From NCBI GenBank assembly GCA_903941105.1, contig CAJANL010000152.1, positions 1 through 64,000 of the forward strand: a DNA stretch of 64,000 nt, written 5' to 3'. The DNA is from an uncultured Rhodospirillaceae bacterium. GTDB lineage: Bacteria > Pseudomonadota > Alphaproteobacteria > Rhodospirillales > Magnetospirillaceae. Below, piece by piece: positions 40,320-56,413 of the stretch; positions within the stretch are counted from its first letter, which is position 1; each line of letters begins with the position of its first letter. The translations under genes were made by a program, and so were the position numbers. The notes beneath the pieces are model-generated. The model saw only the letters and a list, made by a program, of their open reading frames with translations, did not search any database and was not told the DNA's origin.

Positions 40320-41945
40320 ATGACGGACAGCGTCGATCTCATCCTGATCTGCCAGTCCAACGTGGTGAATTACGACGGCTCCTCCACCCTGCCGCTGGAG
40401 GAACTGAGCCGCTACCAGACCCTCATCTATCCGCGCATGGTGCGCCACGGCGACCGCTTCGTCAGCCATCTCGACGCGATCAACCTGATCAAACACGGCC
40501 AGACCTATTTCGAGGCCGATTATCCCGGCCGCCGCGAACGCCTCAACATCTGGAACATGCCCTCGGCCAGCGGCCTGCACCTGGCCAATCTGCTGAGCGG
40601 CGAGGGTATCCGCACCAAGATCATCAACAATCTCGACTCCGAGTGGGATCTGTTCGTTGCGGCCTATGGCGCCTGCCGGCGGCCGCCGCTGGTGGGCATC
40701 TCGTCCACTTTCTACCTCGGCTTCAAGGAGATCGGCCGCATCGCCCGCCGGCTGCGTGCCGTCGATGCCGACATGGACATCATGGTGGGCGGCGCCCATG
40801 CCAATTCCAAGGTTCTGTCCACCGGGGTGGGCAGCCTGGAACAGCCCATGCGCAAGTATGGCATCGACTATGTGCTGCATGCCTTCAACTCCGACGCCGA
40901 CCTACGCGACGTCCTGCTGGCGCGGCGCGATGGCCGCGGCCTCGATGCGGTACGCAATCTCACCTATTTCGAAAACCGCGACCGCGCCAAGGGCCGCTTC
41001 GTCACCACCGCCACCCAGTGGAACACTCCGATGCTCGACGAGGTGCCGGCCAACTGGCACCGCATCGAGGCGCCGTTCCTCAACCGCACCCTGCAGATCC
41101 GCACCGCCTCGGGCTGCCCGTTCTCCTGTGCCTTCTGCTCGTACCCCACCACCGCCGGCGGGTGGAAGACCATCGATCCGGCGCGGGTGCGCCAACACCT
41201 GGACAGTGTCAAGGCCATTCCCGGCATCGACCGGCTGATCTTCATCGACGACACCTTCAACGTGCCCAAACAGCGCTTCAAGGAGCTGCTGAACATCTTC
41301 AAGGACTACGATTTCGAGTGGTTCTCGTTCCTTCGAGTGCAGTACGTCGACGACGACATCGTGCGCGCCATGAAGGATTCGGGCTGCCGCGGTGTCTATC
41401 TCGGGGTGGAATCGGCCGACGACCGCGTTCTGGCAAACATGAACAAGAAGGCGCGCCGCGCCGACTTCGCTCGCGGCATCGACCTGCTCAACAAGTATGA
41501 CATCAGTTCGCTCTCGGCCTTCGTGCTGGGCTTCCCCGGCGAGGATGATAAAAGCATCCGCACCAACATCGACTTCATCGAGAACTGCGGCGTAAGCTTC
41601 TACTCGCTGAAAGAATTCTTCTACATGGAGCACACCGACGTCCACAAGCGCCGGGAAGAATTCGGCCTGACCGGCATGGGCAACAGCTGGTCGCACCGCA
41701 CCATGGACTATTCCCAGGCCGCCGAGATCAAGCTTCAGATGTTCCGCGAGATCAAGAACGCCATCTCGGTCGATCCCGACACCAGCCTATGGTACATGGC
41801 CTATCTCTACGACCAAGGTTATGACTTCGACCGCATCGCCGCCGTGCAGCGCGGCCTCAACGGCGTGATGGACGACCAACTAGGCGGCGAGATGGGGCTG
41901 GACACCGCCGCCTGGACCGCGCTGAAGGCAGCCGTGGCACCATGA
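40320..41945 (+). CDS. B12-binding-type radical SAM protein
   Basis: A 541-residue radical SAM enzyme with an extended N-terminal domain that has weak B12-binding features (VGISSTFYLGFKEIGRIA, IMVGGAHANSK). The Fe-S motif is C266-x3-C270-x2-C273 (CPFSCAFC). LRVQYVDDDIVRAMKDSGCRGVYLGVES is the typical later core. It begins 45 bp after the NeuC gene and overlaps the FkbH-like gene by 4 bp, making it the first gene of the acyl-carrier part of the block. Substrate unknown; methylation of a carbon on a sugar or acyl group is possible. Confidence 0.83.
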   Translation: MTDSVDLILICQSNVVNYDGSSTLPLEELSRYQTLIYPRMVRHGDRFVSHLDAINLIKHGQTYFEADYPGRRERLNIWNMPSASGLHLANLLSGEGIRTKIINNLDSEWDLFVAAYGACRRPPLVGISSTFYLGFKEIGRIARRLRAVDADMDIMVGGAHANSKVLSTGVGSLEQPMRKYGIDYVLHAFNSDADLRDVLLARRDGRGLDAVRNLTYFENRDRAKGRFVTTATQWNTPMLDEVPANWHRIEAPFLNRTLQIRTASGCPFSCAFCSYPTTAGGWKTIDPARVRQHLDSVKAIPGIDRLIFIDDTFNVPKQRFKELLNIFKDYDFEWFSFLRVQYVDDDIVRAMKDSGCRGVYLGVESADDRVLANMNKKARRADFARGIDLLNKYDISSLSAFVLGFPGEDDKSIRTNIDFIENCGVSFYSLKEFFYMEHTDVHKRREEFGLTGMGNSWSHRTMDYSQAAEIKLQMFREIKNAISVDPDTSLWYMAYLYDQGYDFDRIAAVQRGLNGVMDDQLGGEMGLDTAAWTALKAAVAP

Positions 41946-43789
41946 GCGGCCCCGCCGACTGGACGACGGTAAAGGTCCTGGCCGACGATGGCGATGCACA
42001 GGCCGCCTACCACCTGCTGGGCCGCCTGGCCAAGCCCGAGGACGATTTCCCCACCCAGCGCAAGCATGCCCGCCTGTTCGCCCGGCTGCCGCGCCACGAG
42101 TTGGGCCTGCGGCCGCTGCGGGTGGCGCTGCTGGCGACCTCCACCACCGACCATTTCGCCGAGGTGCTGACGCTATGGCTGGGGTTGCAAGGCTTCGACG
42201 CCGAGATCCACCAGCCGCCCTTCGGCCAGGCGGTGCAAAGCGTGCTCGATCCCGCCAGCGCGCTCTACGCCTTCGAGCCCGACATAGTGTGGTTCTTCGA
42301 GACCTGGCGCGACGTTCCCTTCGACCTGCCCATCGGCGCCGGCCGCGATGCCGTCGAGGCGGCAGTGGGCGCAGCGGTGGAGCGCAATGCCGCCCTGTGG
42401 CGAATGCTGCAACACCGCTCGCCGGCCCTGGTGGTGCACAACACCGCCGATATTCCGGCCCGCGACGTTTTGGGCCACTTCGAGGCCAGCGTGCCGTGGA
42501 GCCGCCGCTCGCTGCTGCGCCGCTATAATCTTGCGCTGGCCGACGCGGTGCCGGCCGGAGTGACGCTGTTCGACCTCGACCACCTCGCCGCCTGCTGGGG
42601 CAAGGACCGCTGGATCGACGAACGCTACTGGTACCACTCCAAACACGCCTTCGCCTTCGACGCGGTAGGTCCGGTGGCCTTCCAGTTCGCCCGGCTGATG
42701 ATGGGCGCCAGGGGCCTGTCACGCAAATGCCTGGTGCTCGACCTCGACAACACCCTGTGGGGCGGCGTCATCGGCGACGACGGCATGGACGGCATCGACC
42801 TGGGCAGCGGCGCCGTCGGCGAAGCTTTCACCGATTTTCAGGACTATGTGCACCGCCTCAAGGAGCGCGGCGTCATCCTGGCGGTATGCAGCAAGAACGA
42901 GGATGCCAACGCCCGCGAGCCGTTCCTGCACCACCCCGGCATGCGCTTGAGCCTCGACGACGTCGCCGTGTTCCGCGCCAACTGGGACAACAAGGCCGAC
43001 AACATCCGCAGCATCGCCGCCACGCTGAACATCGGCCTCGACGCCGTGGTGTTCGTCGACGACAACCCGGCCGAACGGGCCCTGGTGCGCGACTGCCTGC
43101 CCATGGTGGCGGTGCCCGAGCTGCCCCTCGACCCCAGCGCCTACGCCGCCACCCTGCACCGCGCCCGCCTGTTCGAGACCGTGTCGTTCTCGCAGGAGGA
43201 CACCCGACGCAACGACTATTACCGCGCCAATGCCGGGCGTGATGACCTGCGGACACAGTTCGCCGATCTCGGGGCCTATCAGAAGAGCCTGGAGATGGTG
43301 GCGCGGGTCGACACCATCGACGCCTTCCACCTGCCGCGCGCCACGCAGCTCGTCAACAAGAGCAACCAGTTCCACCTGACCGGCCACCGCTACGGCGAGG
43401 CCGAGCTGCGCGCCCTGGTCGAGCCGCCGGACTGGGCCGGGCGCGTCTTCTCCCTGACCGACCGCTTCGGCGACAACGGGTTGATCGCGGTGGTGCTGCT
43501 GCACCGTGACGGCGACGAGGCCCATGTGGATACCTGGGTGATGTCATGCCGCGTGTTGGGCCGCGGCATGGAGGAGTTCATCGCCAACGAGATGGCCACG
43601 CTGGCCGCCGCCATGGGCTGCCGCCACCTTGGGGGACGTTATGTGCCCAGCAAAAAGAACAAGCTGGTGGCCGATCTCTACCCGCGCCTGGGCTTCACCC
43701 GGGACGGCGAGGACGAGGGCGGTGAAACCCGCTGGCGGCTGGACCTCGACGGCTTCCGGCCACTGGCAACCCACGTCCGACCGGCCTGA
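41942..43789 (+). CDS. FkbH-like HAD-IIIC protein, first copy
   Basis: A 615-residue FkbH-like protein. Residues about 55-250 form an SGNH-like N-terminal domain (VALLATSTTDHFAEVLTL). About 258-400 is the HAD-IIIC domain with the nucleophile motif D267-L-D269-N-T (LDLDNTLWGGVIGDDG) and VFVDDNPAER. The last third is GNAT-like (TQLVNKSNQFHLTGHRY, DRFGDNGLIAVV). FkbH enzymes take 1,3-bisphosphoglycerate and load glyceryl-phosphate-derived glyceryl onto an acyl carrier protein. An ACP gene lies at 47884. A second FkbH-like gene at 49203 differs in sequence and may have another role. Confidence 0.85.
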   Translation: MSGPADWTTVKVLADDGDAQAAYHLLGRLAKPEDDFPTQRKHARLFARLPRHELGLRPLRVALLATSTTDHFAEVLTLWLGLQGFDAEIHQPPFGQAVQSVLDPASALYAFEPDIVWFFETWRDVPFDLPIGAGRDAVEAAVGAAVERNAALWRMLQHRSPALVVHNTADIPARDVLGHFEASVPWSRRSLLRRYNLALADAVPAGVTLFDLDHLAACWGKDRWIDERYWYHSKHAFAFDAVGPVAFQFARLMMGARGLSRKCLVLDLDNTLWGGVIGDDGMDGIDLGSGAVGEAFTDFQDYVHRLKERGVILAVCSKNEDANAREPFLHHPGMRLSLDDVAVFRANWDNKADNIRSIAATLNIGLDAVVFVDDNPAERALVRDCLPMVAVPELPLDPSAYAATLHRARLFETVSFSQEDTRRNDYYRANAGRDDLRTQFADLGAYQKSLEMVARVDTIDAFHLPRATQLVNKSNQFHLTGHRYGEAELRALVEPPDWAGRVFSLTDRFGDNGLIAVVLLHRDGDEAHVDTWVMSCRVLGRGMEEFIANEMATLAAAMGCRHLGGRYVPSKKNKLVADLYPRLGFTRDGEDEGGETRWRLDLDGFRPLATHVRPA

Positions 43790-43876: not shown

Positions 43877-44977
43877 ATGACTCTGCCCGCCCCGCGCCCG
43901 CCCGTTGCCGATCCGGCTCTGTCGCGTCCCGACTGGACCAAGCCGCAGCCCCGCGACCCGGCAATGCTGTGGCTGGACAAGAACGAGAACACCGACCCCA
44001 AGCTGGCGACGGTGCTGGCCGGCGTGATGAAGGGGCTGCCGACCGAGGCCTATTACACCTACCCCGATTCGGCGGCGCTCTACGCCAAGCTGGCCGACTG
44101 GGTCGGCTGCGAGGCGCGCAACCTGCTGCTGGCCGCCGGTTCCGACGGGGTCATCCGCAGCGTGTTCGAGGCCTATGTCGGCGAGGGCGACACGGTGCTG
44201 CACACGGTGCCCACCTTCGCCATGTACCCGGTCTATTGCCGCATCTACGGCGCCCGCGCCGTCGGTATCGGCTACGAGGCCAGCGACGGCGGCCCGCGTC
44301 TCGACGCAGCGACGGTGATCGCCGCCATTGCCGCCGAGCGGCCCCGGCTGGTCTGCCTGCCCAACCCCGACAGCCCCACCGGCACCGTGTTTGCTCCCGA
44401 CGCGCTGGAGGCCATCGTCGCCGCCGCGGGGGATGCCGGCGCCCTGATCCTGATCGACGAGGCCTATCACCCGTTCCATCCCGACACAGTGGCACCGTGG
44501 ATCGCCCGCCATCCGCATCTCGTGGTGGCGCGCTCCACCGGCAAGGCCTGGGGCATGGCGGGATTGCGCATCGGCTACGGCATCGCCTCGCCCGAAGTGG
44601 CGGTGATGCTGCACAAGGTGCGGCCCATGTACGAGGTCAACACCGTGGCGGTGCACGCCTTCGAGCGCATGCTCGACCACAGCGACACCATGCAGGCCTC
44701 GGTGGGCCGGCTGATGGAGGGCAAGGCGCTGTTCCTCGGCGCCATGATCGCCATGGGCTTCAAGACGCTGTCCGGCCGCGGCAACTTCCTGCACGTGGCC
44801 TTCGGCCCGCACGCCCCAAAGGTGCACGCCGCACTGGCCGACATGGTCCTTTACCGCCAGGATTTCGCCGAGCCCTGCCTCAAGGGCTTCTCGCGCTTTT
44901 CCTGCACCACCCCCACGCTGTTCGCGCCGGTGATCGAACGCATCCGCGACGCCGTCCGCCAAGGAGTCCGTTCATGA
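43877..44977 (+). CDS. Histidinol-phosphate-aminotransferase-like PLP enzyme
   Basis: A 366-residue class I/II aminotransferase. LDKNENTDP near the N terminus, NPDSPTGTVF, LILIDEAYHPFHP and the PLP lysine K223 in STGKAWGMAGLRIGYG follow the HisC pattern. With no histidine genes other than the sugar-linked hisF/hisH nearby, it probably aminates a keto sugar or cyclitol. I chose ATG 43877; a GTG at 43796 in the same frame would add 27 residues that look non-conserved. The 87-bp gap upstream contains no clear promoter. Its stop overlaps a Gfo/Idh dehydrogenase start. Confidence 0.8.
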   Translation: MTLPAPRPPVADPALSRPDWTKPQPRDPAMLWLDKNENTDPKLATVLAGVMKGLPTEAYYTYPDSAALYAKLADWVGCEARNLLLAAGSDGVIRSVFEAYVGEGDTVLHTVPTFAMYPVYCRIYGARAVGIGYEASDGGPRLDAATVIAAIAAERPRLVCLPNPDSPTGTVFAPDALEAIVAAAGDAGALILIDEAYHPFHPDTVAPWIARHPHLVVARSTGKAWGMAGLRIGYGIASPEVAVMLHKVRPMYEVNTVAVHAFERMLDHSDTMQASVGRLMEGKALFLGAMIAMGFKTLSGRGNFLHVAFGPHAPKVHAALADMVLYRQDFAEPCLKGFSRFSCTTPTLFAPVIERIRDAVRQGVRS

Positions 44978-46059
44978 CCGTGAAAGTCGCCATCATCGGC
45001 TGCGGCCGGGTGTCCGGCCACCACCTGCGCTCCATCGCCAAGGTGGAGGGCGGCGAGATCGTCGCCGTCTGCGACCTGCTGGCCGACAAGGCCAGGGCGT
45101 ATTCCGAACAGTTCGGCTGCCGCTGGTTCACCAGCTACCACGCCATGCTGACCGAGATGCCCGAGATCGACGTGGTCGCCGTCGTCACGCCATCGGGGAT
45201 GCACCACGAGCACTGCATGGAGGTGATGCGGCGCTACAGGAAGCACATCATCATGGAGAAGCCGACCTTCATGCGGCCGAGCCAGATGATCGAGGCCTAC
45301 GACGAGGCGGCCCGGCTGGGGGTCGAGATCTTCCCGGTGTTCCAGAACCGCCATAACCGCGCCGTCCAGCGGGTCAAGTCCTCGCTGGACAACGGCGAGC
45401 TGGGCGACATCCGCATCATGAACGTGCGCCTGCGCTGGTGCCGGCCGCAACGCTATTACGACATGGCGCCGTGGCGCGGCACCTTCAGCCATGACGGCGG
45501 CGCGTTGTCGAACCAGGGCATCCACCATGTCGACCTGCTGCGCTATCTCGGCGGCGAGGTGGAGGCGGTCAGCGCCACCATGCGCACCCTGGGCGCCACC
45601 ATCGAGGTGGAAGACGCGGTGGTCGCCACCTACACCTACCCCTCGGGCGCCATCGGCTCACTGGAGGTGACCACGGCGGCCCGGCCCGACGACTTCGAGG
45701 CCAGCCTGTCCATCGTCGGCTCGAAGGGCCTGGCGCAGCTGGGCGGCTGGGCGGTCAACGAGTTGCAGGTGTTCACCCCCGACCCCGAGGCCTGCCAGAC
45801 CGCCTCGCAGGTCATCCCCGACGCCTACGGCTTCGGCCATGTCACCGTCTACGAGAACATCGTCGCCCACCTCACCGGCCGCCGGCCGTTCGACGTCAAC
45901 CGCGAGGACTGCCTGAACAGCCTGCGGCTGTGGCATTCGTTCTATTGCTCGGACGAGAGGGGCGGCGCCTGGGTCAAGCTGGCGGACAAGCCCGAATCGG
46001 CCCGCCTGGGACGCCCCGACGAGGCCATTTCCGGCCTCTACCGCACACCGGCGCCGTGA
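44974..46059 (+). CDS. Gfo/Idh/MocA-family oxidoreductase
   Basis: A 361-residue dehydrogenase: KVAIIGCGRVSGHHL for the dinucleotide, VVTPSGMHHEH, MEKPTFM as the EKP signature, and GGGALSNQG-like GGALSNQGIHHVDLL in the catalytic region. A clean AAGGAG (44961-44966) lies 7 bases before the ATG. The closest functional types are WbpB/WlbA-like UDP-sugar 3-dehydrogenases and inositol dehydrogenases. It is flanked by an aminotransferase and a second Gfo/Idh enzyme, the pattern of oxidation followed by amination of a sugar ring. Confidence 0.85.
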   Translation: MTVKVAIIGCGRVSGHHLRSIAKVEGGEIVAVCDLLADKARAYSEQFGCRWFTSYHAMLTEMPEIDVVAVVTPSGMHHEHCMEVMRRYRKHIIMEKPTFMRPSQMIEAYDEAARLGVEIFPVFQNRHNRAVQRVKSSLDNGELGDIRIMNVRLRWCRPQRYYDMAPWRGTFSHDGGALSNQGIHHVDLLRYLGGEVEAVSATMRTLGATIEVEDAVVATYTYPSGAIGSLEVTTAARPDDFEASLSIVGSKGLAQLGGWAVNELQVFTPDPEACQTASQVIPDAYGFGHVTVYENIVAHLTGRRPFDVNREDCLNSLRLWHSFYCSDERGGAWVKLADKPESARLGRPDEAISGLYRTPAP

Positions 46060-47108
46060 GCGGCATGGACAAGCTTCGGGTCGGCATCGCCGGCTACGGC
46101 GTGGTGGGCCGGCGGCGGCGCCAGTTCATCGATCTCAGGCCCGACATGACCACGGTGGCGGTGTGCGACCGCAGCTTCGCCGAGGTCGGCACCCTGCCCG
46201 ACGGCGTCCGCCACTATCGCACCCCGGACGAGCTGCTGAACGCCGAGAAGCTCGACGCCCTGTTCGTCTGCCTGACCAACGACGTCGCCGCCGACATCAC
46301 CATCGCCGGGCTGGAGCACGGCCTGCACGTCTTCTGCGAGAAGCCGCCGGGCCGCGACGTCGGCGACATCCGCCGAGTGATCGGGGCCGAGGGGCGGTGT
46401 CCCGGCCGGGTGCTGAAATACGGCTTCAACCACCGCTATCACGACTCGGTTCGGGACGCGCTGGCCATTCTGGCCCGGGGCGAGATGGGCCGCGTGCTCA
46501 ACATGCGCGGCGTCTACGGCAAGAGCCAGTTCATCAGCTTCGGCGCCCATTCCGACTGGCGCACCCAGCGCGCCGTGGCCGGCGGCGGCATCCTGCTCGA
46601 CCAGGGCATCCACATGGTCGACCTGATGCGGCTGTTCGGCGGCGAGTTCGACGAGGTGCGCAGCATCGTCACCAACGACCATTGGGGCCACGACATCGAG
46701 GACAACGCCTATGCCCTGATGCGGTCGCGCTCGGGCGTGGTGGCCATGCTGCATTCCACCGCCACCCAGTGGCGGCATCGTTTCAATCTCGAAATCACCA
46801 TGGAACGGGGGGCGCTGATCCTGTCGGGCATCCTGTCGGGCTCGAAATCCTATGGCGCCGAGACCCTGACCGTGGTGTGGGCCGAGGAGGACGACCAGGG
46901 CGACCCCAAGGAACAGACCACCCGTTACAACCAGGACCCTTCCTGGGCCGACGAGATCGCCGAGTTCGCCGACGCCACCCTGCGCGGCGGCCGCGTCCAG
47001 GCCGGCTCGTCCGACGACGCGCTCCGGACCATGGAGCTGGTCTATCGCATCTACTGCGCCGACCCGGAATGGAAGGCGCGCTGGAACCTCACGGAGCCCT
47101 CGGCATGA
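46056..47108 (+). CDS. Gfo/Idh/MocA-family oxidoreductase
   Basis: A 350-residue dehydrogenase with RVGIAGYGVVGRRR, FCEKPPGRD and GGGILLDQGIHMVDLMRLF. It is distinct from its upstream neighbour, so the two likely act on different carbons or different steps. GTG 46056 overlaps the previous stop by 4 bp and is taken as the start; ATG 46065 three codons later is equally possible. It overlaps the KdsB-like gene by 4 bp. The substrate is probably a sugar, sugar acid or cyclitol. Confidence 0.84.
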   Translation: MSGMDKLRVGIAGYGVVGRRRRQFIDLRPDMTTVAVCDRSFAEVGTLPDGVRHYRTPDELLNAEKLDALFVCLTNDVAADITIAGLEHGLHVFCEKPPGRDVGDIRRVIGAEGRCPGRVLKYGFNHRYHDSVRDALAILARGEMGRVLNMRGVYGKSQFISFGAHSDWRTQRAVAGGGILLDQGIHMVDLMRLFGGEFDEVRSIVTNDHWGHDIEDNAYALMRSRSGVVAMLHSTATQWRHRFNLEITMERGALILSGILSGSKSYGAETLTVVWAEEDDQGDPKEQTTRYNQDPSWADEIAEFADATLRGGRVQAGSSDDALRTMELVYRIYCADPEWKARWNLTEPSA

Positions 47109-47872
47109 CCAAGATCATCGGCCTGATCCCCGCCCGCATGGCCGCCAGCCGCTTCCCCGGCAAGCCGCTGTTCCCCATCTTCGGCCGCCCGATGATCGAG
47201 CACGTCTTCGAGCGCGCCCGCCAGTTCGGCCGCTGGGACGTGCTGGCCATCTGCACCTGCGACGAGGAGATCCGCGCCTTCGCCGAGTCCAAGGGCTATC
47301 CGGTGATCATGACCGCCGATACCCACACCCGGGCGCTGGACCGCGTCGCCGAAGCCACCACCAAATGCGGCATCGCGGTGTCGGACAACGACATCGTGCT
47401 CAACGTCCAGGGCGACGAGCCGATGATGCATCCCGCCATGATCACCGCCACCATCCAGCCCATGGAGGAGCACGCCCATGTGCGCGGCACCATGCTGGCC
47501 ATGGACATCGTCGACGAGGCGCAGTTCAGGAACCCCGACACGCTGAAGATCATCCACGACCTGTCGGGCCGCGTGCTCTACACCTCGCGCCAGCCCATCC
47601 CGCACTGCAAGCAATTCGGCCCCGAACTGGAGGCCAAGCGGATCTACGGCATCTTCGGCTTCCGCTGGGAGTTCCTCAAGCTGTTCACCCAGTTGCCGCC
47701 CTCGCCGTTGGAAATCAAGGAAGCCTGCGACTCCAACCGCCTCTACGACCACGGTTTCCACCAGCACATCGCCCCCTACCCGTTCTGCCCCAGCTATTCG
47801 GTGGACAGCCCGCACGACATCGGCATCGTCGAGGCGGCCATGGCCAAGGACCCGCTGTGGGGCAGCTACTAG
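47105..47872 (+). CDS. CMP-ulosonate cytidylyltransferase of the KdsB type
   Basis: A 255-residue protein with the KdsB signature near the start (IGLIPARMAASRFPGKPL) and NVQGDEPMMHP, SRQPIPHC and a C-terminal SVDSPHDIGIVEAA. KdsB makes CMP-Kdo for lipopolysaccharide. A third CMP-acid transferase here, next to dehydrogenases and an aminotransferase and away from any kdsA or Kdo transferase, suggests a Kdo-like or modified 8- or 9-carbon acid, comparable to the CMP-Kdo8N route of Shewanella. Housekeeping KdsB is the alternative. Confidence 0.83.
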   Translation: MTKIIGLIPARMAASRFPGKPLFPIFGRPMIEHVFERARQFGRWDVLAICTCDEEIRAFAESKGYPVIMTADTHTRALDRVAEATTKCGIAVSDNDIVLNVQGDEPMMHPAMITATIQPMEEHAHVRGTMLAMDIVDEAQFRNPDTLKIIHDLSGRVLYTSRQPIPHCKQFGPELEAKRIYGIFGFRWEFLKLFTQLPPSPLEIKEACDSNRLYDHGFHQHIAPYPFCPSYSVDSPHDIGIVEAAMAKDPLWGSY

Positions 47873-47883
47873 AGGACACACCC

Positions 47884-48132
47884 ATGGCCCTGACCGACGA
47901 CATCATCTACCAGCGCCTGGCCACGGTGTTCCAGGACGTGTTCGACGACGACGCCCTGACGCCCCATGCCGCCATGTCGGCCAAGGATGTCCCCGAATGG
48001 GACAGCATGAGCCACATCCGACTGGTGGTGGCCGTCGAGGAGGAGTTCGCCATCAAGCTCTCCACCGCCGAACTGGCCAAGCTGGAGAATGTCGGCCAGA
48101 TGGTGGTGCTGATCCGGGCAAAGGCGGCATGA
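47884..48132 (+). CDS. Acyl carrier protein
   Basis: An 82-residue four-helix acyl carrier protein. The phosphopantetheine attachment serine is S41 in EWDSMSHI, and the sequence is acidic around it (VAVEEEFAIKLSTAELAKL is helix 3). An AGAGGA ribosome site lies at 47871-47876. The gene overlaps the MaoC gene by 4 bp and is followed by an SDR, a FkbH-like protein and an MBOAT acyltransferase, so it should carry a glyceryl-type or short hydroxyacyl group for glycan acylation, not fatty acids. No ketosynthase is encoded nearby. Confidence 0.86.
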   Translation: MALTDDIIYQRLATVFQDVFDDDALTPHAAMSAKDVPEWDSMSHIRLVVAVEEEFAIKLSTAELAKLENVGQMVVLIRAKAA

Positions 48133-48551
48133 GCGCTCCGTCGGTCCACAGCCTGTCCGACATTCCCGAGGGCACCACGGCGCGGCTACCCTTCCGCATT
48201 GCCGCCGCCGACATGGACGCCTTCGCCCGCCTGTCCGGCGACGTCAACCCGCTGCACACCGACGACGCCTTCGCCCAGGGCCGGGGCTTTCCCGGCCGGG
48301 TGGTCTATGGCGGCCTGCTGGTGGCGCAGGTATCGCGCCTGCTGGGCATGGAACTGCCGGGCCGCGACGGGGTGTGGATGGGACTGAGGATGGATTTCCG
48401 GGCGCCGCTGCACATCGACGAGGACGCCGTGCTGGAGGCGGTGGTCGACCGCGTCTCGGAGGCGGTCAGGCTGGTGCGCCTCAAGCTGACCATCCGGGCC
48501 GGCGAGCGGCTGATCGCCACCGGCAGCGTCGAAAGCACCCTGAATGGCTGA
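48129..48551 (+). CDS. MaoC-like (R)-specific enoyl hydratase/dehydratase
   Basis: A 140-residue single hot-dog-fold protein. The hydratase-2 motif is clear: FARLSGDVNPLHTDDAFAQGRGFPGRVVYGGLL has the Asp and His of the active site with the expected spacing. It hydrates or dehydrates a 3-hydroxyacyl group on CoA or ACP. Standing between the ACP and an SDR reductase, it suggests that the carried acyl group is reshaped before transfer, for example a 3-hydroxyacyl or a dehydrated glyceryl derivative. It overlaps the ACP gene by 4 bp and the SDR by 8 bp. Confidence 0.84.
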   Translation: MSAPSVHSLSDIPEGTTARLPFRIAAADMDAFARLSGDVNPLHTDDAFAQGRGFPGRVVYGGLLVAQVSRLLGMELPGRDGVWMGLRMDFRAPLHIDEDAVLEAVVDRVSEAVRLVRLKLTIRAGERLIATGSVESTLNG

Positions 48552-49206
48552 GGCTGTACTGGTCACCGGCGGCTCGGGCGGCATCGGCGCCGCCACCTGC
48601 CGTGCCCTGGCCGCCGCCGGCTTCCGGCCGCTGGTGGGCTATGCCACCGGCCGCGAGCGCGCCCTGGCGGTGGCCGCCGCCACCGGCGGACTCGCGGTGG
48701 CCTGCGACATGGCCGACGATGCCTCCATCGACGCCGCGGTGGCCGAGGCCGCCGCCACCACCCTGGCCGGCGTCGTGCTGGCCGCCTCGCCGCCGCCGGC
48801 ATCGCTGCCCTTCACCAAGGTGACCGCCGAGGCCGGGCTGCAATGGCGGGTCAACGTCGCCGGGCCACGCCGCCTGCTGGCCGGGCTGGTGAAATCCTGC
48901 TTCCGCCCACGCCGCGCCGGCTTCGCCGTGGCGGTGCTCAGCCGCGCCATGGGAGTGGGCGAGGCCGCCGCCCTGTCCGGCATGGCCGACTACGTGGTGG
49001 CCAAGCACGGGCTGCTGGGACTGATGAAGGCGGCGGCGGCCGAGTTCCCCTGGCTGCGCAGCCATGCCGTCACTCCCGGCTTCACCGAAACCGCCATGCT
49101 GGCCGCCTTCGACGCGCGCTTCCTGGAACAGGCCCGCGCCACCACCCGCTTCGCCACCCCGGACGAGGTGGCGGCCGAGATCCTCGCCTTGGTGACGGCG
49201 CCGTGA
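48544..49206 (+). CDS. Short-chain dehydrogenase/reductase (FabG-like)
   Basis: A 220-residue classical SDR: VTGGSGGIGAAT binds the dinucleotide, VLSRAMGVGE supplies the serine and YVVAK the YxxxK dyad, and HAVTPGFTET is the substrate loop. It resembles 3-oxoacyl-ACP reductases, a little shorter than usual. It is embedded between MaoC and the second FkbH-like gene, overlapping both, so it most likely reduces or oxidises the acyl group on the neighbouring ACP. Confidence 0.83.
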   Translation: MAEAVLVTGGSGGIGAATCRALAAAGFRPLVGYATGRERALAVAAATGGLAVACDMADDASIDAAVAEAAATTLAGVVLAASPPPASLPFTKVTAEAGLQWRVNVAGPRRLLAGLVKSCFRPRRAGFAVAVLSRAMGVGEAAALSGMADYVVAKHGLLGLMKAAAAEFPWLRSHAVTPGFTETAMLAAFDARFLEQARATTRFATPDEVAAEILALVTAP

Positions 49207-51068
49207 GCCTGTCCCTGGCCGACCTGCCCTGGCTGCCGCCGGCCCCGGATGACTTCCGCGGCGCCCTGGCCGCCGCCGCCTCGGCCGCCGGGCTGGCCCG
49301 CCTCGCCAATCACCGCCTCGGCGAACCGCAGCTGGTGCGGCTGGCCAAGGCGTTGGGACGCCTATCCGACACCGCACCACTGACACCCTTTCGCCTCGCC
49401 GTGCTCAGCAACGCCACCACCGAACTGCTGCTGCCGGCGCTGGTCGGCACCGCCCTGCGCCACGGGCTGGCGCTGGAGGTCAGCGCCGCGCCCTTCGATC
49501 AGGCGGTGCAGCAGGCGCTCGATCCCGCCTCGGCCCTGCACGGCGTCCGCCCCGACGCGGTGCTGCTGGCGTTCGATGCGCGCGGCTACGGCATCGACGG
49601 CCACCACCCGGCGCTGACCGGCGCCGAGGCCGCCGCCAAGATCGACGGCGCCCTGGCCAAGGTCGCCACCATCCGCGCCGGGCTGGCGCGGGGCTGTGCC
49701 GCGCCGCTGCTGGTGCAGACCCTGGCGCCACCGCCCAAGCGGCTGTTCGGCGGCCTCGACCGTCGCATTCCCGGCAGCGCCTCGCGCCTCGCCGCCGCCT
49801 TCAACGACCGGCTGGCCGAGGCCGGCGACCTGCTGTTCGACGTGGCGGCATTGGCCGAGACGGTGGGGCTGGAGAGCTGGCACGATCCCTCGCGCTGGCA
49901 CCACGCCAAGCTGGCCTTCGCGCCCCGACTGGTGCCGCTCTATGCCGACCACCTTGCCCGCCTGCTGGCCGCGCTGCGCGGCAAGGCGCGCAAATGCCTG
50001 GTGCTCGACCTCGACAACACCTGCTGGGCCGGGGTGATCGGCGACGACGGGCTGGAGGGCATCGGCATCGGCCAGGGCGACGCGCTGGGCGAGGCGCATC
50101 TGGCGGTGCAGCGGGCCGCCCTCGACCTCAGGACGCGCGGCGTGGTGCTGGCGGTGTGTTCGAAGAACGACGACGCCATCGCCCGCCGCCCCTTCCGCGA
50201 CCATCCCGACATGCTGCTGCGCGAGGACCACATCGCGGTGTTCCAGGCCAACTGGATCGACAAGCCGACCAATCTCAAGGCCATCGCCAAGCAGCTCAAC
50301 ATCGGCACCGACGCGCTGGTGTTCCTCGACGACAACCCCGTGGAGCGTGCCCTGGTGCGCCGCGAGATGCCCGAAGTCGCCGTCCCCGAGCTGCCCGAGG
50401 ACGCCGCCTATTATCCCCGCATGCTGCTGGCGGCGGGCTATTTCGAGGCGGTGGCGTTCTCGGCCGAGGACCGCGGCCGCGCCGAGCAGTATCAGGCCAA
50501 CGCACGGCGCGCCGAGTTGGAATCCAGCGCCACCGACCTGGATTCCTACCTGCGCTCGCTGGAAATGGTGCTGACCCTGGCGCCGTTCGACGCGCTGGGC
50601 CGCGCCCGCATCGCCCAGCTGATCAACAAGTCCAACCAGTTCAACCTCACTACCCGGCGCTACACCGAGGCCGAGGTCGCCCGTCTGGAAGACGATGCCG
50701 CCGTCTTCACCCTGCAGGCGCGGCTGCTGGATGGTTTCGGCGACAACGGCATGATCAGCGTCGTCATCGTCCGGGCATCGGCCGCCGTCTGGGAGTTCGA
50801 CACCTGGCTGATGAGCTGCCGCGTGCTCGGCCGCCGCGTCGAGGAGGCGGTGCTGGCCGCCGTGGCCGGGGCGGCCCGGACGGCGGGCGCCAAGGCACTG
50901 GTCGGCCGCTACATCGCCTCGGGCCGCAACGGCATGGTGGAAGACCACTACCGCAAGCTGGGTTTCGCGCCGGCCGGGACCGAGGGCGAGGCAACCCTGT
51001 GGCGCCTCGACCTCGCCGGCTGGACACCGCCCGCCCTGCCGCTGGCCATCGAAAGCACCCTGCCGTGA
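49203..51068 (+). CDS. FkbH-like HAD-IIIC protein, second copy
   Basis: A 621-residue protein with the same three-part layout as the copy at 41942: an SGNH-like N-terminal domain (LAVLSNATTELLLPAL), the HAD-IIIC domain with D269-L-D271 (LDLDNTCWAGVIGDDG), and a GNAT-like C-terminal domain (AQLINKSNQFNLTTRRY). FkbH loads glyceryl from 1,3-bisphosphoglycerate onto an ACP; the ACP gene is three genes upstream. It starts at GTG 49203, overlapping the SDR stop, and its stop overlaps the GTG of a 37-codon gene leading into the SGNH and MBOAT genes. This copy is thus the one tied to export. Confidence 0.86.
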   Translation: MSLSLADLPWLPPAPDDFRGALAAAASAAGLARLANHRLGEPQLVRLAKALGRLSDTAPLTPFRLAVLSNATTELLLPALVGTALRHGLALEVSAAPFDQAVQQALDPASALHGVRPDAVLLAFDARGYGIDGHHPALTGAEAAAKIDGALAKVATIRAGLARGCAAPLLVQTLAPPPKRLFGGLDRRIPGSASRLAAAFNDRLAEAGDLLFDVAALAETVGLESWHDPSRWHHAKLAFAPRLVPLYADHLARLLAALRGKARKCLVLDLDNTCWAGVIGDDGLEGIGIGQGDALGEAHLAVQRAALDLRTRGVVLAVCSKNDDAIARRPFRDHPDMLLREDHIAVFQANWIDKPTNLKAIAKQLNIGTDALVFLDDNPVERALVRREMPEVAVPELPEDAAYYPRMLLAAGYFEAVAFSAEDRGRAEQYQANARRAELESSATDLDSYLRSLEMVLTLAPFDALGRARIAQLINKSNQFNLTTRRYTEAEVARLEDDAAVFTLQARLLDGFGDNGMISVVIVRASAAVWEFDTWLMSCRVLGRRVEEAVLAAVAGAARTAGAKALVGRYIASGRNGMVEDHYRKLGFAPAGTEGEATLWRLDLAGWTPPALPLAIESTLP

Positions 51069-51178
51069 CCCTGCCGCCCGCCGTTTCGCTGGCCTGGATG
51101 GCGGCCAAACTGATCGTATTCGTCGTGCTCGCCAACCAGGGCCTCAAGGTCGTGGTGGTGGCCTACCAGCAGTTCTGA
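51065..51178 (+). CDS. 37-residue membrane microprotein, possible DltX analogue
   Basis: A tiny frame from GTG 51065 to TGA 51178 encoding 37 residues: a short N terminus, then a mostly hydrophobic stretch (about residues 7-33, with an Asn-Gln-Gly break) and a C terminus ending in Tyr34-Gln-Gln-Phe37. The GTG overlaps the FkbH stop by 4 bp and the stop overlaps the SGNH ATG by 1 bp (TGATG), so the gene exactly fills the space between them. Gram-positive Dlt systems include DltX, a single-pass microprotein with a conserved C-terminal tyrosine motif working with the MBOAT DltB. The terminal YxxF and the neighbours match that pattern. Homology is not shown. Confidence 0.6.
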   Translation: MTLPPAVSLAWMAAKLIVFVVLANQGLKVVVVAYQQF

Positions 51179-52347
51179 TGACAAGCCCCCTGCGCCCGTT
51201 CCGATGGATGCTGACCGCCGCCGTGGTGGGGGCGGCGGTCGAGCTGCTGTTCCGGCTGGCGCTGTTTCCCGGCTGGCGCGACCTGCACCACGACATGTAC
51301 GTGCCGCATCCGGTGTTCGAGCACTACAGCCGCCCCAACCTCGACATCCGCCGGCTCAACCCCGGCAATTGGGACGTGCGAGTCCACACCAACGCGCGGG
51401 GCATGCGCGGGCGCGAGGCCGACCGCGAGGCCGAGCTGGCCGGGCTGTGGGTGGTGGGCGATTCCAACGCCTTCGGCGGCTATCTCGACGATGGCGAGGT
51501 CTTCGCGGCCCGGCTGGCCGGTCATGGCCTGCGCGCCGCCAACCTGTCGAGCGAGGGCCACGACCTGCTGCGGCAATCCCGCGTGCTGCGCAGTCTGGCG
51601 GCCGAGGGGCGGCGGCCCCGGGCGGTGGTGGCGGCGGTGACGCTCTATCACGGCATCAAGCCCTATCGCACCGACATGGCCGAACTGGACCAGCCGCTGC
51701 CCGAGGTCAAGGCCAGCGCGCCGGCCGGCGGCGCCGCCACGGCGCTGGGCCGCGGCATCGGCCGCCTGCTGGACAGCTGGCCGCGCGACCTGTTCGCGGT
51801 GCGGGTCTTCCTCGGCAGCAACAGCGCCGCCTATGGCTGGCTGAAGTCGGGCATCATGGGCATTCCGGCCTTGCGCGAGTGGACCCTGGCGCGCGGCCTG
51901 CGCGCCGACCTCGACATGATCTATCCCTTCGGCCTCGACCTGCTGCGGCCGCTGACGGCGGATAATCCCCGTCTGGACGACGTCCGCGCCACCGCCGACC
52001 TGCTGGCCCGCCTGTCCGGGCTGGTGCGGCGCGACCTCGGCGCCCCCTTCGCGGTGGTGCTGCTGCCGGCCCACCACCAGATCTATCCCGCCGCCTTCGC
52101 CCGCTGGCGCACCGCCAACGGTTTTGCCGGCGAGGATCTCGACCCGCTGCGCCCGCTGGCGGCATTGCAGACCGAACTGACGGCCCGCGGCGTGCCCACC
52201 CTGGCGACGCTGGACGCCCTGCGCGCCTCGCCGTGGCGCGTCACCTTCCCCGACGACGGCCATCTCAACGCCGCCGGCCACAGGATCGTCGCCGAGGCGT
52301 TGGCCGGCTGGCTGCCGGGAGCCCTGGGCATCGAGGCGCGGCCATGA
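51178..52347 (+). CDS. Membrane-anchored SGNH/DltD-like acyl-transfer partner
   Basis: A 389-residue protein with an N-terminal membrane helix (about residues 10-28) and an extracytoplasmic SGNH domain. The nucleophile is S96 in VVGDSNAFGG and the Asp-His pair is D359-x-x-H362 in FPDDGHLNAAGH. Partner proteins of MBOAT acyltransferases (DltD, AlgJ/AlgX, PatB) have this design and complete acyl transfer to the glycan in the periplasm. Its gene lies between the 37-residue microprotein and the MBOAT gene, overlapping both. That makes it a different functional type from the SGNH protein at 26234. Confidence 0.82.
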   Translation: MTSPLRPFRWMLTAAVVGAAVELLFRLALFPGWRDLHHDMYVPHPVFEHYSRPNLDIRRLNPGNWDVRVHTNARGMRGREADREAELAGLWVVGDSNAFGGYLDDGEVFAARLAGHGLRAANLSSEGHDLLRQSRVLRSLAAEGRRPRAVVAAVTLYHGIKPYRTDMAELDQPLPEVKASAPAGGAATALGRGIGRLLDSWPRDLFAVRVFLGSNSAAYGWLKSGIMGIPALREWTLARGLRADLDMIYPFGLDLLRPLTADNPRLDDVRATADLLARLSGLVRRDLGAPFAVVLLPAHHQIYPAAFARWRTANGFAGEDLDPLRPLAALQTELTARGVPTLATLDALRASPWRVTFPDDGHLNAAGHRIVAEALAGWLPGALGIEARP

Positions 52348-53546
52348 TCCCCAACCTCGCCCCCATCACCGTTGACTCACTGGCCTTCCTGGTGCTGGCC
52401 GGCATGGCCGTGCTCACCGCCTGGAGCCGCCCGGCCCGCTTCCCCATGGTGCTGACCGGCCTCAGCCTGGTGATGCTGGCCTCGTGGCTGAAGCCGCTGG
52501 ACGCGGCGGCGCTGGCGCTGGTGCTGGTGCCGCCCTACCTGATCGCCCGCCGCCTGTGGGGCCGCGGCGAGGCCGGCGGCAGCGTGGTGCCGGCGCTGGT
52601 GCTGTGGCAGGTGGCGCTGTTCGTGGCCTTGCGCCGCTACGAGCCGCTCGACCGCTGGCTCGACCACCCCATCGCCATCATCGGCCTGTCCTATATGCTG
52701 TTCCGCACCCTGCATCTGGTGATCGAGGCGCCGCTGTCGGGCCACCTGCCGCTGACGCCGGAGCGCTATCTCGGCTACGTCACCGGCTTCTGGACCCTGC
52801 TGGCCGGACCGATCCAGCGTTACGACGACTTCTGCGCCGGCCTCGCCGCGGCGGCCCGGCCGGCACCCGATCAGGCGCTCGCCGCCGGCCATCGCGCCGT
52901 CAACGGCCTGCTCAAGGCTTTCCTGCTGGCGCCCCTGGCGCTGGAGGCCTCGACCCTCGACTTCCTGACGGCGCCCGGCGCCGGCTGGAGCGACGGGCTG
53001 ATGGCGTTCTACGGCTATCCCGTCTACCTCTACCTGAACTTCTCGGGCTACACCGACGTGGTGCTCGGGCTGGCCGCCCTGTGCGGCATGCGCCTGCCGG
53101 AGAATTTCGACCGCCCCTATCTGGCGCGCAACGTCGCCGAGTTCTGGGGCCGCTGGCACATGTCGTTCGGCGTCTGGATCCGCGCCTATGTCTTCACGCC
53201 CCTGTGCAAGACCCTGCTGAGCCGCGCCCGCGGCCGGCACGCCGACCCGCTGACGGCGCTGACGGTGTTGATCACCTTCGTGCTGGTCGGCCTGTGGCAC
53301 GGCACCACCGCCGCCTTCGTGGTATTCGGCCTCGCCCACGGCGCCGCCATCGTCGCCGGCGGAGTGTGGGGCGGGCTGCTGAAGGCGCGCCTCGGCAAGA
53401 AGGGGCGGAGCGCCTTCCTGGCCCATCCCGCCACCACGGCGGTTTCCACCCTGCTGACCTTCCATTTCGTCTGCCTCAGCCTGCAACTGGTGGCCAATCC
53501 GCTGGGCAAGGTGGTGACGGCGTGGTCCGCCTTCCTGGCCGGATGA
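52344..53546 (+). CDS. MBOAT-family membrane O-acyltransferase
   Basis: A 400-residue polytopic membrane protein of the AlgI/DltB type. It has about ten hydrophobic segments, FWTLLAGPIQRY, YLNFSGYTDVVLGLA, EFWGRWHMS with H272, and VGLWHGTT with the conserved MBOAT histidine H319. Family members take an acyl group from a thioester carrier in the cytoplasm and pass it across the membrane to an extracytoplasmic acceptor. The upstream ACP and FkbH genes suggest a glyceryl-type or hydroxyacyl donor. ATGA overlaps join it to the SGNH gene and to the methyltransferase that follows. Confidence 0.88.
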   Translation: MIPNLAPITVDSLAFLVLAGMAVLTAWSRPARFPMVLTGLSLVMLASWLKPLDAAALALVLVPPYLIARRLWGRGEAGGSVVPALVLWQVALFVALRRYEPLDRWLDHPIAIIGLSYMLFRTLHLVIEAPLSGHLPLTPERYLGYVTGFWTLLAGPIQRYDDFCAGLAAAARPAPDQALAAGHRAVNGLLKAFLLAPLALEASTLDFLTAPGAGWSDGLMAFYGYPVYLYLNFSGYTDVVLGLAALCGMRLPENFDRPYLARNVAEFWGRWHMSFGVWIRAYVFTPLCKTLLSRARGRHADPLTALTVLITFVLVGLWHGTTAAFVVFGLAHGAAIVAGGVWGGLLKARLGKKGRSAFLAHPATTAVSTLLTFHFVCLSLQLVANPLGKVVTAWSAFLAG

Positions 53547-54649
53547 CGGACGCGTATACTGCCGGCCACGAAACCATTACGAGTCTTCCCGCCTTGATCC
53601 TGCCCACCTTGACCCTGCGCTGCCCCGAATGCCACCACCCCGGACTGGACGGCGCCGCCGGCGAACTGGTCTGCGCCGGTTGCGGCGCCCGTTTTCCGGT
53701 GGATGCCCGCACCGGCGTGGCGGCCTTGCTGGCGCGGCGCTCGGGCACCGAGCAGAAGGCCGACATCCGCGCCTGGTGGGGCGACCTCTACGAGCAGCTC
53801 TACGGCCCCACCGACCGCAGCCTGACACCCGAGAGCCTGGAAGCGCTGCTGTCCGAGACCGAGGATCTGTTCCGCCGCCGCCGCCTGCTGCCGGTGGTCG
53901 AGATGCCGCTGGCCGAACTGCGCGGCAAGCAGGTACTGGAGATCGGTCCCGGCGGCGGGGCGCATTCCTGCCTGTTCAAGCGCCACGGCGCCCAGGTCAC
54001 CGCCGTCGACATCACCCCCGAGCGGGCCATGTCCACCGCCTTCAAGCTGTCGCTCATCAAAGGCGGCGAGGGTCGCGCCTTCAACGCCGACGCCGAGAAC
54101 CTGCCCTTCGCCGACGCCAGCTTCGACATCGTCTATTCCAACGGCGTGCTGCACCACTCGGCCGATACCGACCGCACCCTGGCCGAGGTTCACCGCGTGC
54201 TGAAGCCGGGTGGCCGGGCGGTATTGATGCTGTATTCGCGCCATTCGGCGGTCTACTGGGGCACCATCGTGCCGCGCGGGCTGGTCTCGGGCGAAATGTT
54301 CCGCTGGCCGGAGCCGGAATGGATCGGCCGCGTCACCGAGGGCAAGCCCAAATTCGGCCAGACCCGCAATCCCTTCACCCGGGTCTATTCCGAGGCCGAA
54401 TTGCGCCGGACCCTGGCCGCCTTCACCATGGTCAGCCTGCGCAAGAACAGCTTCCAGTTCGACAATTTCGCCATTCCCCGCCTGACTCAGCTACGGGTGG
54501 CGGTGCTGAAGGCGCTGGGCTACCGGCCGCATCCCGGCGCCCTGCTGGTCTATGGCGGCGCCGACTTCGTGCCCGAAACGGCGCTGGAGCTGTGGCTCGG
54601 GCGGCATATGGGGTTCGCATGGAACATCGTGGTGGAGAAACCGCAATGA
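53543..54649 (+). CDS. SAM-dependent methyltransferase with N-terminal zinc ribbon
   Basis: A 368-residue protein. A Trm112-like zinc ribbon lies at about residues 27-50 (CPECHHPG ... CAGCGARFPVD). A class I methyltransferase follows, with motif I LEIGPGGGAHSCLF near residue 132 and FDIVYSNGVLHHSAD. The C-terminal part is long. Such ribbon-plus-methyltransferase proteins are common in glycan clusters and methylate sugars or sugar acids. Coupled to the MBOAT gene by a 4-bp overlap; it could cap or decorate the acylated unit. Confidence 0.83.
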   Translation: MTDAYTAGHETITSLPALILPTLTLRCPECHHPGLDGAAGELVCAGCGARFPVDARTGVAALLARRSGTEQKADIRAWWGDLYEQLYGPTDRSLTPESLEALLSETEDLFRRRRLLPVVEMPLAELRGKQVLEIGPGGGAHSCLFKRHGAQVTAVDITPERAMSTAFKLSLIKGGEGRAFNADAENLPFADASFDIVYSNGVLHHSADTDRTLAEVHRVLKPGGRAVLMLYSRHSAVYWGTIVPRGLVSGEMFRWPEPEWIGRVTEGKPKFGQTRNPFTRVYSEAELRRTLAAFTMVSLRKNSFQFDNFAIPRLTQLRVAVLKALGYRPHPGALLVYGGADFVPETALELWLGRHMGFAWNIVVEKPQ

Positions 54650-55362
54650 GGAAGGCGTTGGGGACGACGGCCCTGGTCACCGGCGGCACCCGCGGCATCG
54701 GGCGGGCCATCGCCCTGCGGCTGACGGCCGACGGCGTCGCCGTCACCGTCACCGGCACCCGCCCCGACGGCGAAGCCCCCGAGGGCTGCGCCTATCTCGC
54801 CATCGATTTCTCGGACACCGCCGCCACGGAACGTTTCGCCACCGGAATTGCCGCGCAGGGCTTCGACATCCTGGTCAACAACGCCGGCATCAACAAGCTC
54901 AGCCCCTTCGCCGAGATTTCGCTGGCCGAGTTCGAACTCATCCAGCGGATCAACGTCACCGCGCCCATGCTGCTGGCCCGCGCCGTGGTGCCGGGCATGC
55001 GGGCGCGGAACTGGGGCCGCATCGTCAATGTCGGCTCCATCTGGAGCATCATTTCGAAGGAGCAACGGGCCAGCTATTCCGCCTCGAAATTCGCCCTCGA
55101 CGGTCTGACCGCCGCCCTGGCGGCGGAAGTCGCCGTCGACAACGTGCTGGTCAACACCGTGGCGCCCGGCTTCATCGACACCGAACTGACGCGGCGCATG
55201 CTGGGCGACGAGGGGATGCGGACACTGACCGCCAGCGTGCCCATGCGCCGCGCCGGCACCCCGGAAGAAATCGCCGTCTTCGTCGCCTGGATGGCCGGGC
55301 CGGAGAACACCTTCATCAGCGGGCAGTGCATCGCCATCGACGGAGGTTTCACCCGTGTCTGA
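54646..55362 (+). CDS. Short-chain dehydrogenase/reductase
   Basis: A 238-residue classical SDR: LVTGGTRGIGRAIAL, LVNNAGINKLSPF, NVGSIWSIIS with the catalytic serine, YSASK as the YxxxK dyad and a C-terminal ISGQCIAIDGGF typical of FabG-like enzymes. It precedes an AroB-like cyclase with an 8-bp overlap, so a keto-sugar or cyclitol substrate is as likely as an acyl-ACP. Complete and normal in length. Confidence 0.85.
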   Translation: MRKALGTTALVTGGTRGIGRAIALRLTADGVAVTVTGTRPDGEAPEGCAYLAIDFSDTAATERFATGIAAQGFDILVNNAGINKLSPFAEISLAEFELIQRINVTAPMLLARAVVPGMRARNWGRIVNVGSIWSIISKEQRASYSASKFALDGLTAALAAEVAVDNVLVNTVAPGFIDTELTRRMLGDEGMRTLTASVPMRRAGTPEEIAVFVAWMAGPENTFISGQCIAIDGGFTRV

Positions 55363-56413
55363 CACCCTGACCATCCAAAGCCACAAGGGTCCCTATACCG
55401 TCACCTTCGACGACGATGCGCTGGAGCGGCTCACCCCCGGCGGCGCCCATTTCATCATCGACGCCCGGGTGGCCGAACTTTACCGCGACCGCATGGCCGC
55501 CGTCCTGGCCTCGCCCAGCGTCCTGATCATCGAGGCCACCGAGGCCAACAAGTCGCTGGAGTGCATGCCGGCCTATGTCGGCCATCTGGTGGAGCGCGGA
55601 CTGCGGCGCGAGCAGACCCTGGTCGCCATCGGCGGCGGCATCATCCAGGACATCACCTGCTTCCTCGCCGCCACCATGCTGCGCGGCGTCGCCTGGACGT
55701 TCCTGCCCACCACCCTGCTGGCCCAGTGCGATTCCTGCATCGGCTCGAAAAGCAGCATCAACTGCGGCGACGCCAAGAACATCCTCGGCACCTTCACCCC
55801 GCCGGGCGAGGTCATCATCTCCACCCGCTTCCTCGACACCCTCGACGTGCGCGAACTGCAGTCCGGGGTGGGTGAGATGCTGAAGGTGCACGCCATCGAC
55901 GGCCCCGCCAGCTTCGCCGGCTTCGCCGCCGGCTACGACGCCCTGTTCCGCAACCGCGCCGCCATGGTCGCCGCCATCCGCCGCTCGCTGGAAATCAAAC
56001 GAGGCTACATCGAACGGGATGAATTCGACCGCGGGCCCCGGCTGGTGTTCAACTACGGCCATTCCTTCGGCCACGCCATCGAGGCCGCCACCGATTTCGC
56101 CGTGCCGCACGGCATCGCGGTGACCATGGGCCTCGACATGGCCAACTGGATTTCCGCCGGGCTGGGCCACGGCACCCTGGCCCACTGGGCCGCCGCCCAT
56201 CCGCTGCTGGCGAAGAACTACCGCGGCTTCGAACGCCGCCCGGTGCCGCTGGACCGCTTCCTCGCCGCCCTGGCCAAGGACAAGAAGAATACCGGCACCG
56301 GCTCGGTGACACTGATCCTGCCCGACGCTGAAGGCCGCATATTCCGCGGCACCCATGCGGCCGACGAGCGATTCCGCGAATTATGCCGGCGTTACCTGGA
56401 GGAAATCCGATGA
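55355..56413 (+). CDS. 3-dehydroquinate-synthase-like sugar-phosphate cyclase
   Basis: A 352-residue AroB-family protein. VAIGGGIIQDITCFLAATMLRG, the FLPTTLLAQCDSCIGSKSSINCGDAKNILGTF block (K/N-rich active site), GVGEMLKVHAI and the metal-ligand segment FNYGHSFGHAIEAA are all present. Substitutions against shikimate-pathway AroB in the DSSVGGK-type block (here DSCIGSK) suggest another substrate. Sugar-phosphate cyclases make dehydroquinate, deoxy-inosose or valiolone; the surrounding dehydrogenases and aminotransferase would fit an aminocyclitol. The GTG start overlaps the SDR stop. Confidence 0.8.
   Translation: MSDTLTIQSHKGPYTVTFDDDALERLTPGGAHFIIDARVAELYRDRMAAVLASPSVLIIEATEANKSLECMPAYVGHLVERGLRREQTLVAIGGGIIQDITCFLAATMLRGVAWTFLPTTLLAQCDSCIGSKSSINCGDAKNILGTFTPPGEVIISTRFLDTLDVRELQSGVGEMLKVHAIDGPASFAGFAAGYDALFRNRAAMVAAIRRSLEIKRGYIERDEFDRGPRLVFNYGHSFGHAIEAATDFAVPHGIAVTMGLDMANWISAGLGHGTLAHWAAAHPLLAKNYRGFERRPVPLDRFLAALAKDKKNTGTGSVTLILPDAEGRIFRGTHAADERFRELCRRYLEEIR

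Follow-up and report, generated by a model that had tools for sequence, protein, structure and literature searches.

A gene cluster predicted to feed a membrane O-acyltransferase from an FkbH-loaded carrier protein in an uncultured Rhodospirillaceae bacterium

The gene cluster

The window analysed here, the whole 64,000-nucleotide stretch of contig CAJANL010000152.1 (assembly GCA_903941105.1) from an uncultured Rhodospirillaceae bacterium, contains seven genes at 47884-53546, all on the plus strand and each overlapping or abutting the next. They encode an acyl carrier protein (ACP), a MaoC-type hydratase, a short-chain dehydrogenase/reductase (SDR), an FkbH-family protein, a membrane microprotein, an SGNH-type protein and a membrane-bound O-acyltransferase (MBOAT) (Table 1). 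The seven consecutive overlapping genes reported in a preliminary description of this DNA were borne out, with matches for ACP, MaoC, SDR, FkbH and MBOAT above curated Pfam/NCBIfam cut-offs and the SGNH protein assigned from motifs and a structural model. The active-site residues checked in the cluster proteins were intact. Comparison with related loci indicates that the cluster probably encodes a carrier-protein-fed machine for O-acylation of an extracytoplasmic glycan, Dlt-like in its working but supplied by another loader.

Table 1. Genes of the cluster and its immediate flanks in the window
Feature	Position	Strand	Motifs, matches and remarks
Acyl carrier protein (ACP), 82 aa	47884..48132	+	Ser of DSM motif; PP-binding 22.1 bits (Pfam)
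MaoC-type (R)-hydratase/dehydratase, 140 aa	48129..48551	+	SGDVNPLH motif; PF01575 50 bits
SDR-family reductase, 220 aa	48544..49206	+	GGSGGIG and YVVAK motifs; PF00106 (adh_short) 66 bits
FkbH-family protein, 621 aa, expected glyceryl loader	49203..51068	+	TIGR01686 288 bits; FkbH_N 33.5 bits
Membrane microprotein, 37 aa, GTG start, ends VVAYQQF	51065..51178	+	Proposed acyl-shuttle peptide, Tyr34
SGNH-type protein, 389 aa, N-terminal membrane helix	51178..52347	+	Ser96, His362
Short MBOAT acyltransferase, 400 aa, lacking a shuttle motif at its C-terminus	52344..53546	+	PF03062 62 bits; His319
Gfo/Idh, Gfo/Idh and cytidylyltransferase genes, directly upstream	44974..47872	+	Pfam; same order in L032
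Methyltransferase gene overlapping MBOAT stop	53543..54649	+	Pfam; 48% identical relative in L032 (tblastn)

Carrier protein and acyl supply

A WDS motif was kept in about 20 ACPs adjoining related MBOATs, and the PDB entry nearest to the window MaoC protein was 1IQ6, an (R)-specific enoyl-CoA hydratase (E 8e-19). The TIGR01686 score of the FkbH protein compares with a cut-off of 147 bits, placing it in the FkbH family, and its D269 and D271 (the HAD aspartates) and C539 were invariant across 26 FkbH proteins. In polyketide pathways FkbH moves glyceryl from 1,3-bisphosphoglycerate onto ACPs (PMC7489565). MaoC and SDR form a single fused protein in 8 of the 39 FkbH+MBOAT loci described below, and the same fusion lies beside FkbH/ACP in four loci (L124, L128, L192 and L266), so that the two enzymes probably act consecutively. 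The recurrence of this pair suggests that lactyl-ACP is likelier than plain glyceryl-ACP at the window locus; FkbH+ACP+MBOAT loci without MaoC/SDR may transfer plain glyceryl.

MBOAT and SGNH proteins

DltB structures were the only PDB sequence relatives of the window MBOAT (E 1e-31) and DltB was also the best fold match to its AlphaFold2 model (pLDDT 88.5, TM 0.77-0.80). The score against the DltB model TIGR04091 was 175 bits, far under the cut-off of 375. His319 was invariant in 16 sequences. In a 66-row tree the protein grouped with four others (L042, L043, L044 and L048), all short MBOATs (support 97/89), and this group was sister to ten FkbH-linked long MBOATs (99/94) and away from two Dlt-type rows. 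On account of both the low score and the tree position the window MBOAT is not considered a DltB orthologue.

The SGNH protein had no Pfam match above cut-off, ALGX being sub-threshold at 19.6 bits, and no match to the DltD family PF04914 was found for this protein (P0006). Its Ser96 (in GDSN) and His362 (in DDGH) were invariant in ten relatives, and its AlphaFold2 model (pLDDT 74) resembled SGNH hydrolases, with only generic members returned by a fold search. The pair thus has the composition of an MBOAT-SGNH system, namely an MBOAT with an invariant His and an SGNH partner with Ser and His.

The microprotein is a conserved gene

The window MBOAT ends AWSAFLAG, and the shuttle motif seen at the C-terminus of long MBOATs is carried instead by the separate 37-residue protein, which ends VAYQQF; Tyr and the last Phe match FxYxxF, with Val at the position of the first Phe. 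Acylation of the Tyr has been demonstrated experimentally in PatA, and the same shuttle is described for DltX (PMC12148441). The YxxF end of the microprotein resembles this DltX motif, although no match to the DltX family PF12459 was obtained for the window microprotein at E<=1 (that of L093 was sub-threshold at 14.2 bits).

Relatives occupy the equivalent position in L032/L043, L042 and L044, that of L032 being 47% identical (E 4e-7), and the AYQQF end is kept although its codons vary (TAC/TAT, CAG/CAA and TTC/TTT) and three stop codons are in use. This conserved position, the sequence conservation with synonymous changes and the low background given below rule out a chance open reading frame (ORF), and the 37-codon ORF is a genuine gene.

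A small hydrophobic protein with Tyr at -4 (-5 in L101) was found near all 23 short MBOATs examined (the window, L037, L038, L040, L042, L043, L044, L048, L058, L063, L071, L075, L093, L101, L119, L129, L154, L202, L204, L205, L206, L207 and L209). A further short MBOAT, that of L142, is outside this count, because its microprotein is encoded on the opposite strand and next to another MBOAT. Most of the small proteins counted end in Phe, those of L037, L038, L154, L205 and L101 ending in Met, Asn or Gln. The background was low: within 1.27 Mb, 4 of 10,384 small ORFs matched, of which at least one is real, as did 3 loci out of about 125 with long MBOATs, where one of the hits is a misclassified short MBOAT. 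The contrast with these controls is not strictly like-for-like, as the automatic rule missed several of the 23 (L040, L042, L101, L205, L206 and L209), which were picked out by eye or under a looser rule.

One of the 23, in a record labelled as an Actinomycetota metagenome-assembled genome (MAG; L063, 1-4288), is a dlt set in two convergent halves, one strand encoding MBOAT and DltD, the other an AMP-ligase, a protein of 78 aa and a microprotein with the C-terminus FIYNQF; the microprotein is thus on the opposite strand from its MBOAT.

Recurrence in other genomes

FkbH was present in 51 of 299 Pseudomonadota genomes. At 68 stand-alone FkbH loci an ACP was adjacent in 43, a MaoC was present in 27 and an MBOAT lay within 6 kb in 15, and the MBOAT was associated with the ACP (14/43 with an adjacent ACP versus 1/25 without, p=0.006). 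Conversely, none of 52 long MBOATs away from FkbH had an ACP within 6 kb, in a sample that omits FkbH loci fetched earlier. FkbH+MBOAT loci numbered 39 in total, with an ACP in 37 and a short MBOAT in 10, although some of them were collected through MBOAT similarity and the sample is not unbiased.

In L129, from another Pseudomonadota class, the set is reordered as FkbH-ACP-microprotein-MBOAT-MaoC-SDR followed by a 377-aa protein, the suspected SGNH partner, and in L202 the order is MBOAT-microprotein-SGNH-ACP-MaoC-FkbH. Short-MBOAT versions occur in MAGs labelled Omnitrophota, Nitrospinota and Desulfobacteraceae (L048, L075, L119 and L093). The fused-MBOAT version was found in 39 of 40 Sinorhizobium pSymB-type records, strain 1021 included, with most of the set present near rkp capsule genes, and Tistrella mobilis pTM1 is a further named example of the FkbH-ACP-MBOAT association. 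A search of plasmids with window protein P0007 was unproductive. The preliminary description had made its proposal depend on co-occurrence of these genes elsewhere, and the set does recur across several phyla.

The S. meliloti pSymB locus (L262, 8729-13764; NC_003078, 631205-636239) comprises an MBOAT ending PPFLYQGF, a 409-aa protein, an ACP and FkbH, near rkp capsule export genes. The 409-aa protein is annotated as a TonB-dependent receptor, yet has GGST and DPGH motifs, and the receptor name looks wrong. No Pfam match was obtained for this suspected SGNH partner or for those of L129 and L154 (363 aa).

Replacement of the loader

In the loci most closely related to the window core (L043/L032 and L044) the arrangement is ACP-microprotein-SGNH-MBOAT, and no FkbH match was found in two genomes carrying this core, G041 (98% complete) and G711, ruling out FkbH as its obligatory partner. 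Directly after the MBOAT of L032 and L044 lies a homologue of amino acid--[acyl-carrier-protein] ligase (PDB 3MEY, E 4e-35 and 2e-36, respectively). The two homologues are 58% identical to each other, and a KASIII-like gene is near both. L032 also has the two Gfo/Idh genes and the cytidylyltransferase gene of the window, in the same order and with 63-67% identity, beside its ACP-microprotein-SGNH-MBOAT genes. Since relatives without FkbH have a carrier-protein ligase, one of them beside the same sugar genes, the loader looks interchangeable, and one kind of glycan locus appears, from these comparisons, to accept more than one type of acyl loader. No match to the carrier-protein ligase was obtained in the window genome. 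Elsewhere, two carrier-protein ligases stand beside long MBOATs in G242, and the short MBOATs of L101, L205, L206 and L209 are accompanied by AMP-binding ligases, as in Dlt.

Ligase homologues of about 400 aa were seen beside MBOATs in L032 (2228-3478, minus strand), L044 (11247-12497, plus strand), L270 and L271; in L032, L044 and L271 an ACP is also near. Homologues of about 310 aa, found in other genomes, are not accompanied by an MBOAT.

Proposed mechanism and comparison with known systems

In the proposed mechanism FkbH would load glyceryl from 1,3-bisphosphoglycerate onto the ACP by known FkbH chemistry, perhaps via Cys539. MaoC would then remove the beta-hydroxyl of glyceryl-ACP to give enolpyruvyl/pyruvyl-ACP, which the SDR would reduce to lactyl-ACP. 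By analogy with Dlt and PatA, the MBOAT would accept the acyl group from the ACP on the cytoplasmic side and transfer it to Tyr34 in the YQQF end of the microprotein, from which it would pass to Ser96 of the SGNH protein for esterification of the glycan outside the membrane. The acceptor glycan probably carries a CMP-activated sugar made by neighbouring genes.

The part-by-part parallel with Dlt (DltA, DltC, DltX, DltB and DltD; D-alanylation of teichoic acid) drawn in the preliminary description holds on comparative grounds for the carrier protein, the short DltB-like MBOAT, the SGNH-type partner and, as a counterpart of DltX, the separate one-helix microprotein, whose Tyr and Phe lie at -4 and -1. 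The cluster differs from Dlt in that FkbH, with MaoC and SDR, replaces the AMP-ligase DltA (no AMP-binding match was found among the seven genes with Pfam/NCBIfam), in the lineage of its MBOAT and in its position in a Gram-negative surface-glycan locus. With PatA/PatB and alginate-type O-acetylation it shares the MBOAT and SGNH pair and the Tyr shuttle motif, whereas those systems use acetyl-CoA, have no carrier protein and bear the motif at the MBOAT's own C-terminus. Unlike the FkbH/ACP polyketide pathways (tetronates, methoxymalonyl-ACP), the genes examined include no polyketide synthase, the ACP is associated with a membrane acyltransferase, and the modifying enzymes are MaoC and SDR rather than the two dehydrogenases of methoxymalonyl-ACP synthesis. 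The amino acid--[acyl-carrier-protein] ligases (Bradyrhizobium, PDB 3MEY) of the FkbH-less relatives likewise charge a free-standing carrier protein with a small acid but have an aminoacyl-tRNA-synthetase fold.

MBOAT-SGNH pathways other than Dlt have been said to lack a carrier protein and a DltX-like microprotein (PMC12148441, published in 2025), a statement contradicted by the window locus and its relatives. Within the FkbH-linked lineage the shuttle peptide seems either to have separated from the MBOAT or to have become fused with it. The window system is judged to be a variant form of MBOAT-SGNH glycan acylation that appears undescribed so far: no account of an FkbH-fed ACP-microprotein-SGNH-MBOAT system was found in the open-access literature, most subscription papers being beyond the search. 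The open-access literature likewise gave nothing useful on gellan glyceryl-transfer genes, FkbH in surface glycans, lactyl starter chemistry or lactyl/glyceryl esters.

Alternative interpretations

The architecture and an ACP-fed mechanism are well supported by comparison between genomes. Several points weigh against the proposed acylation machine: its support is wholly comparative, the acyl group, acceptor and activity being inferred; the SGNH assignment comes from motifs and a moderate model (pLDDT 74); the first motif residue of the microprotein is V and not F; G041 and G711 have the core without FkbH; the MaoC and SDR adjoining the ACP could serve another product; and a second FkbH gene in the window (41942-43789) blurs the division of labour between the two FkbH proteins.

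The same machine might transfer plain glyceryl or another C3 acid, with MaoC and SDR acting elsewhere or adjusting stereochemistry. Glyceryl esters occur on gellan, and many FkbH-ACP-MBOAT loci, such as that of S. meliloti pSymB, have no MaoC or SDR nearby. Glyceryl-ACP is also what FkbH makes in known pathways (PMC7489565). This alternative is the less likely one at the window locus: the MaoC and SDR genes separate that of the ACP from that of FkbH, and in many genomes a single MaoC-SDR protein is encoded next to FkbH/ACP.

It is unlikely that FkbH, ACP, MaoC and SDR supply a cytoplasmic N-acylation of an amino sugar, with the MBOAT, SGNH protein and microprotein separately performing O-acetylation from acetyl-CoA. 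Such a division would fit a locus making a NeuB-type sugar, the occurrence of at least one FkbH-ACP-MaoC/SDR set beside a WcbI-type transferase and not an MBOAT, and the fact that most FkbH loci are without a nearby MBOAT. It is opposed by the FkbH gene directly overlapping that of the microprotein, by the persistence of ACP-microprotein-SGNH-MBOAT in the absence of FkbH, and by the 52 long MBOATs described above, which indicate that MBOATs do not as a rule have an ACP beside them.

A true Dlt (D-alanylation) system with extra genes acquired is highly improbable and was rejected on four defining features (DltA loader, DltB score, DltX family and DltD family), as the similarity of the MBOAT to DltB noted above is outweighed by its sub-cut-off score and its grouping with FkbH-linked MBOATs, by the absence of an AMP-ligase among the genes and of DltX or DltD family matches, and by a real dlt locus in the same data giving AMP-binding and DltD (318 bits) at high scores.

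Returning to the proposed acylation machine, we lean towards a single transfer core, of ACP, a separate or fused Tyr-shuttle peptide, MBOAT and SGNH protein, served by interchangeable loaders (AMP-ligases, FkbH either alone or together with MaoC-SDR, and carrier-protein ligases resembling aminoacyl-tRNA synthetases), by which different acids of central metabolism could be placed on the same surface glycan. If true, this would give FkbH/ACP pairs and, as the loader swap suggests, some carrier-protein ligases a role outside natural products. The window locus and its relatives predict that surface glycans bear lactyl or glyceryl esters derived straight from glycolysis, which could influence the properties of the surface, interaction with hosts and the texture of bacterial gums. 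As the fused-MBOAT version on S. meliloti pSymB is close to K-antigen export genes, the idea is testable in a genetic model.

Neighbouring genes

The upstream Gfo/Idh, Gfo/Idh and cytidylyltransferase genes are probably a route to the acceptor sugar. Genes for a NeuB-type synthase, a UDP-GlcNAc 2-epimerase-type protein and a 3-dehydroquinate-synthase-like protein lie at 37729-40274 and 55355-56413 of the window and probably represent an unusual nonulosonate-like sugar pathway.

On a Niveispirillum cyanobacteriorum plasmid (L266, 7563-12043) FkbH, ACP, a WcbI-type putative acetyltransferase and a MaoC-SDR fusion are encoded consecutively, combining the same genes for acyl supply with another type of transferase.

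At 40320-43789 of the window a B12-binding/radical SAM gene overlaps the second FkbH gene (615 aa), which has no ACP beside it. In L048 a radical SAM gene and then an FkbH gene (49% and 53% identity to the window pair) directly precede ACP-MBOAT-microprotein, and this retention of the pair makes a C-methylated acyl unit conceivable.

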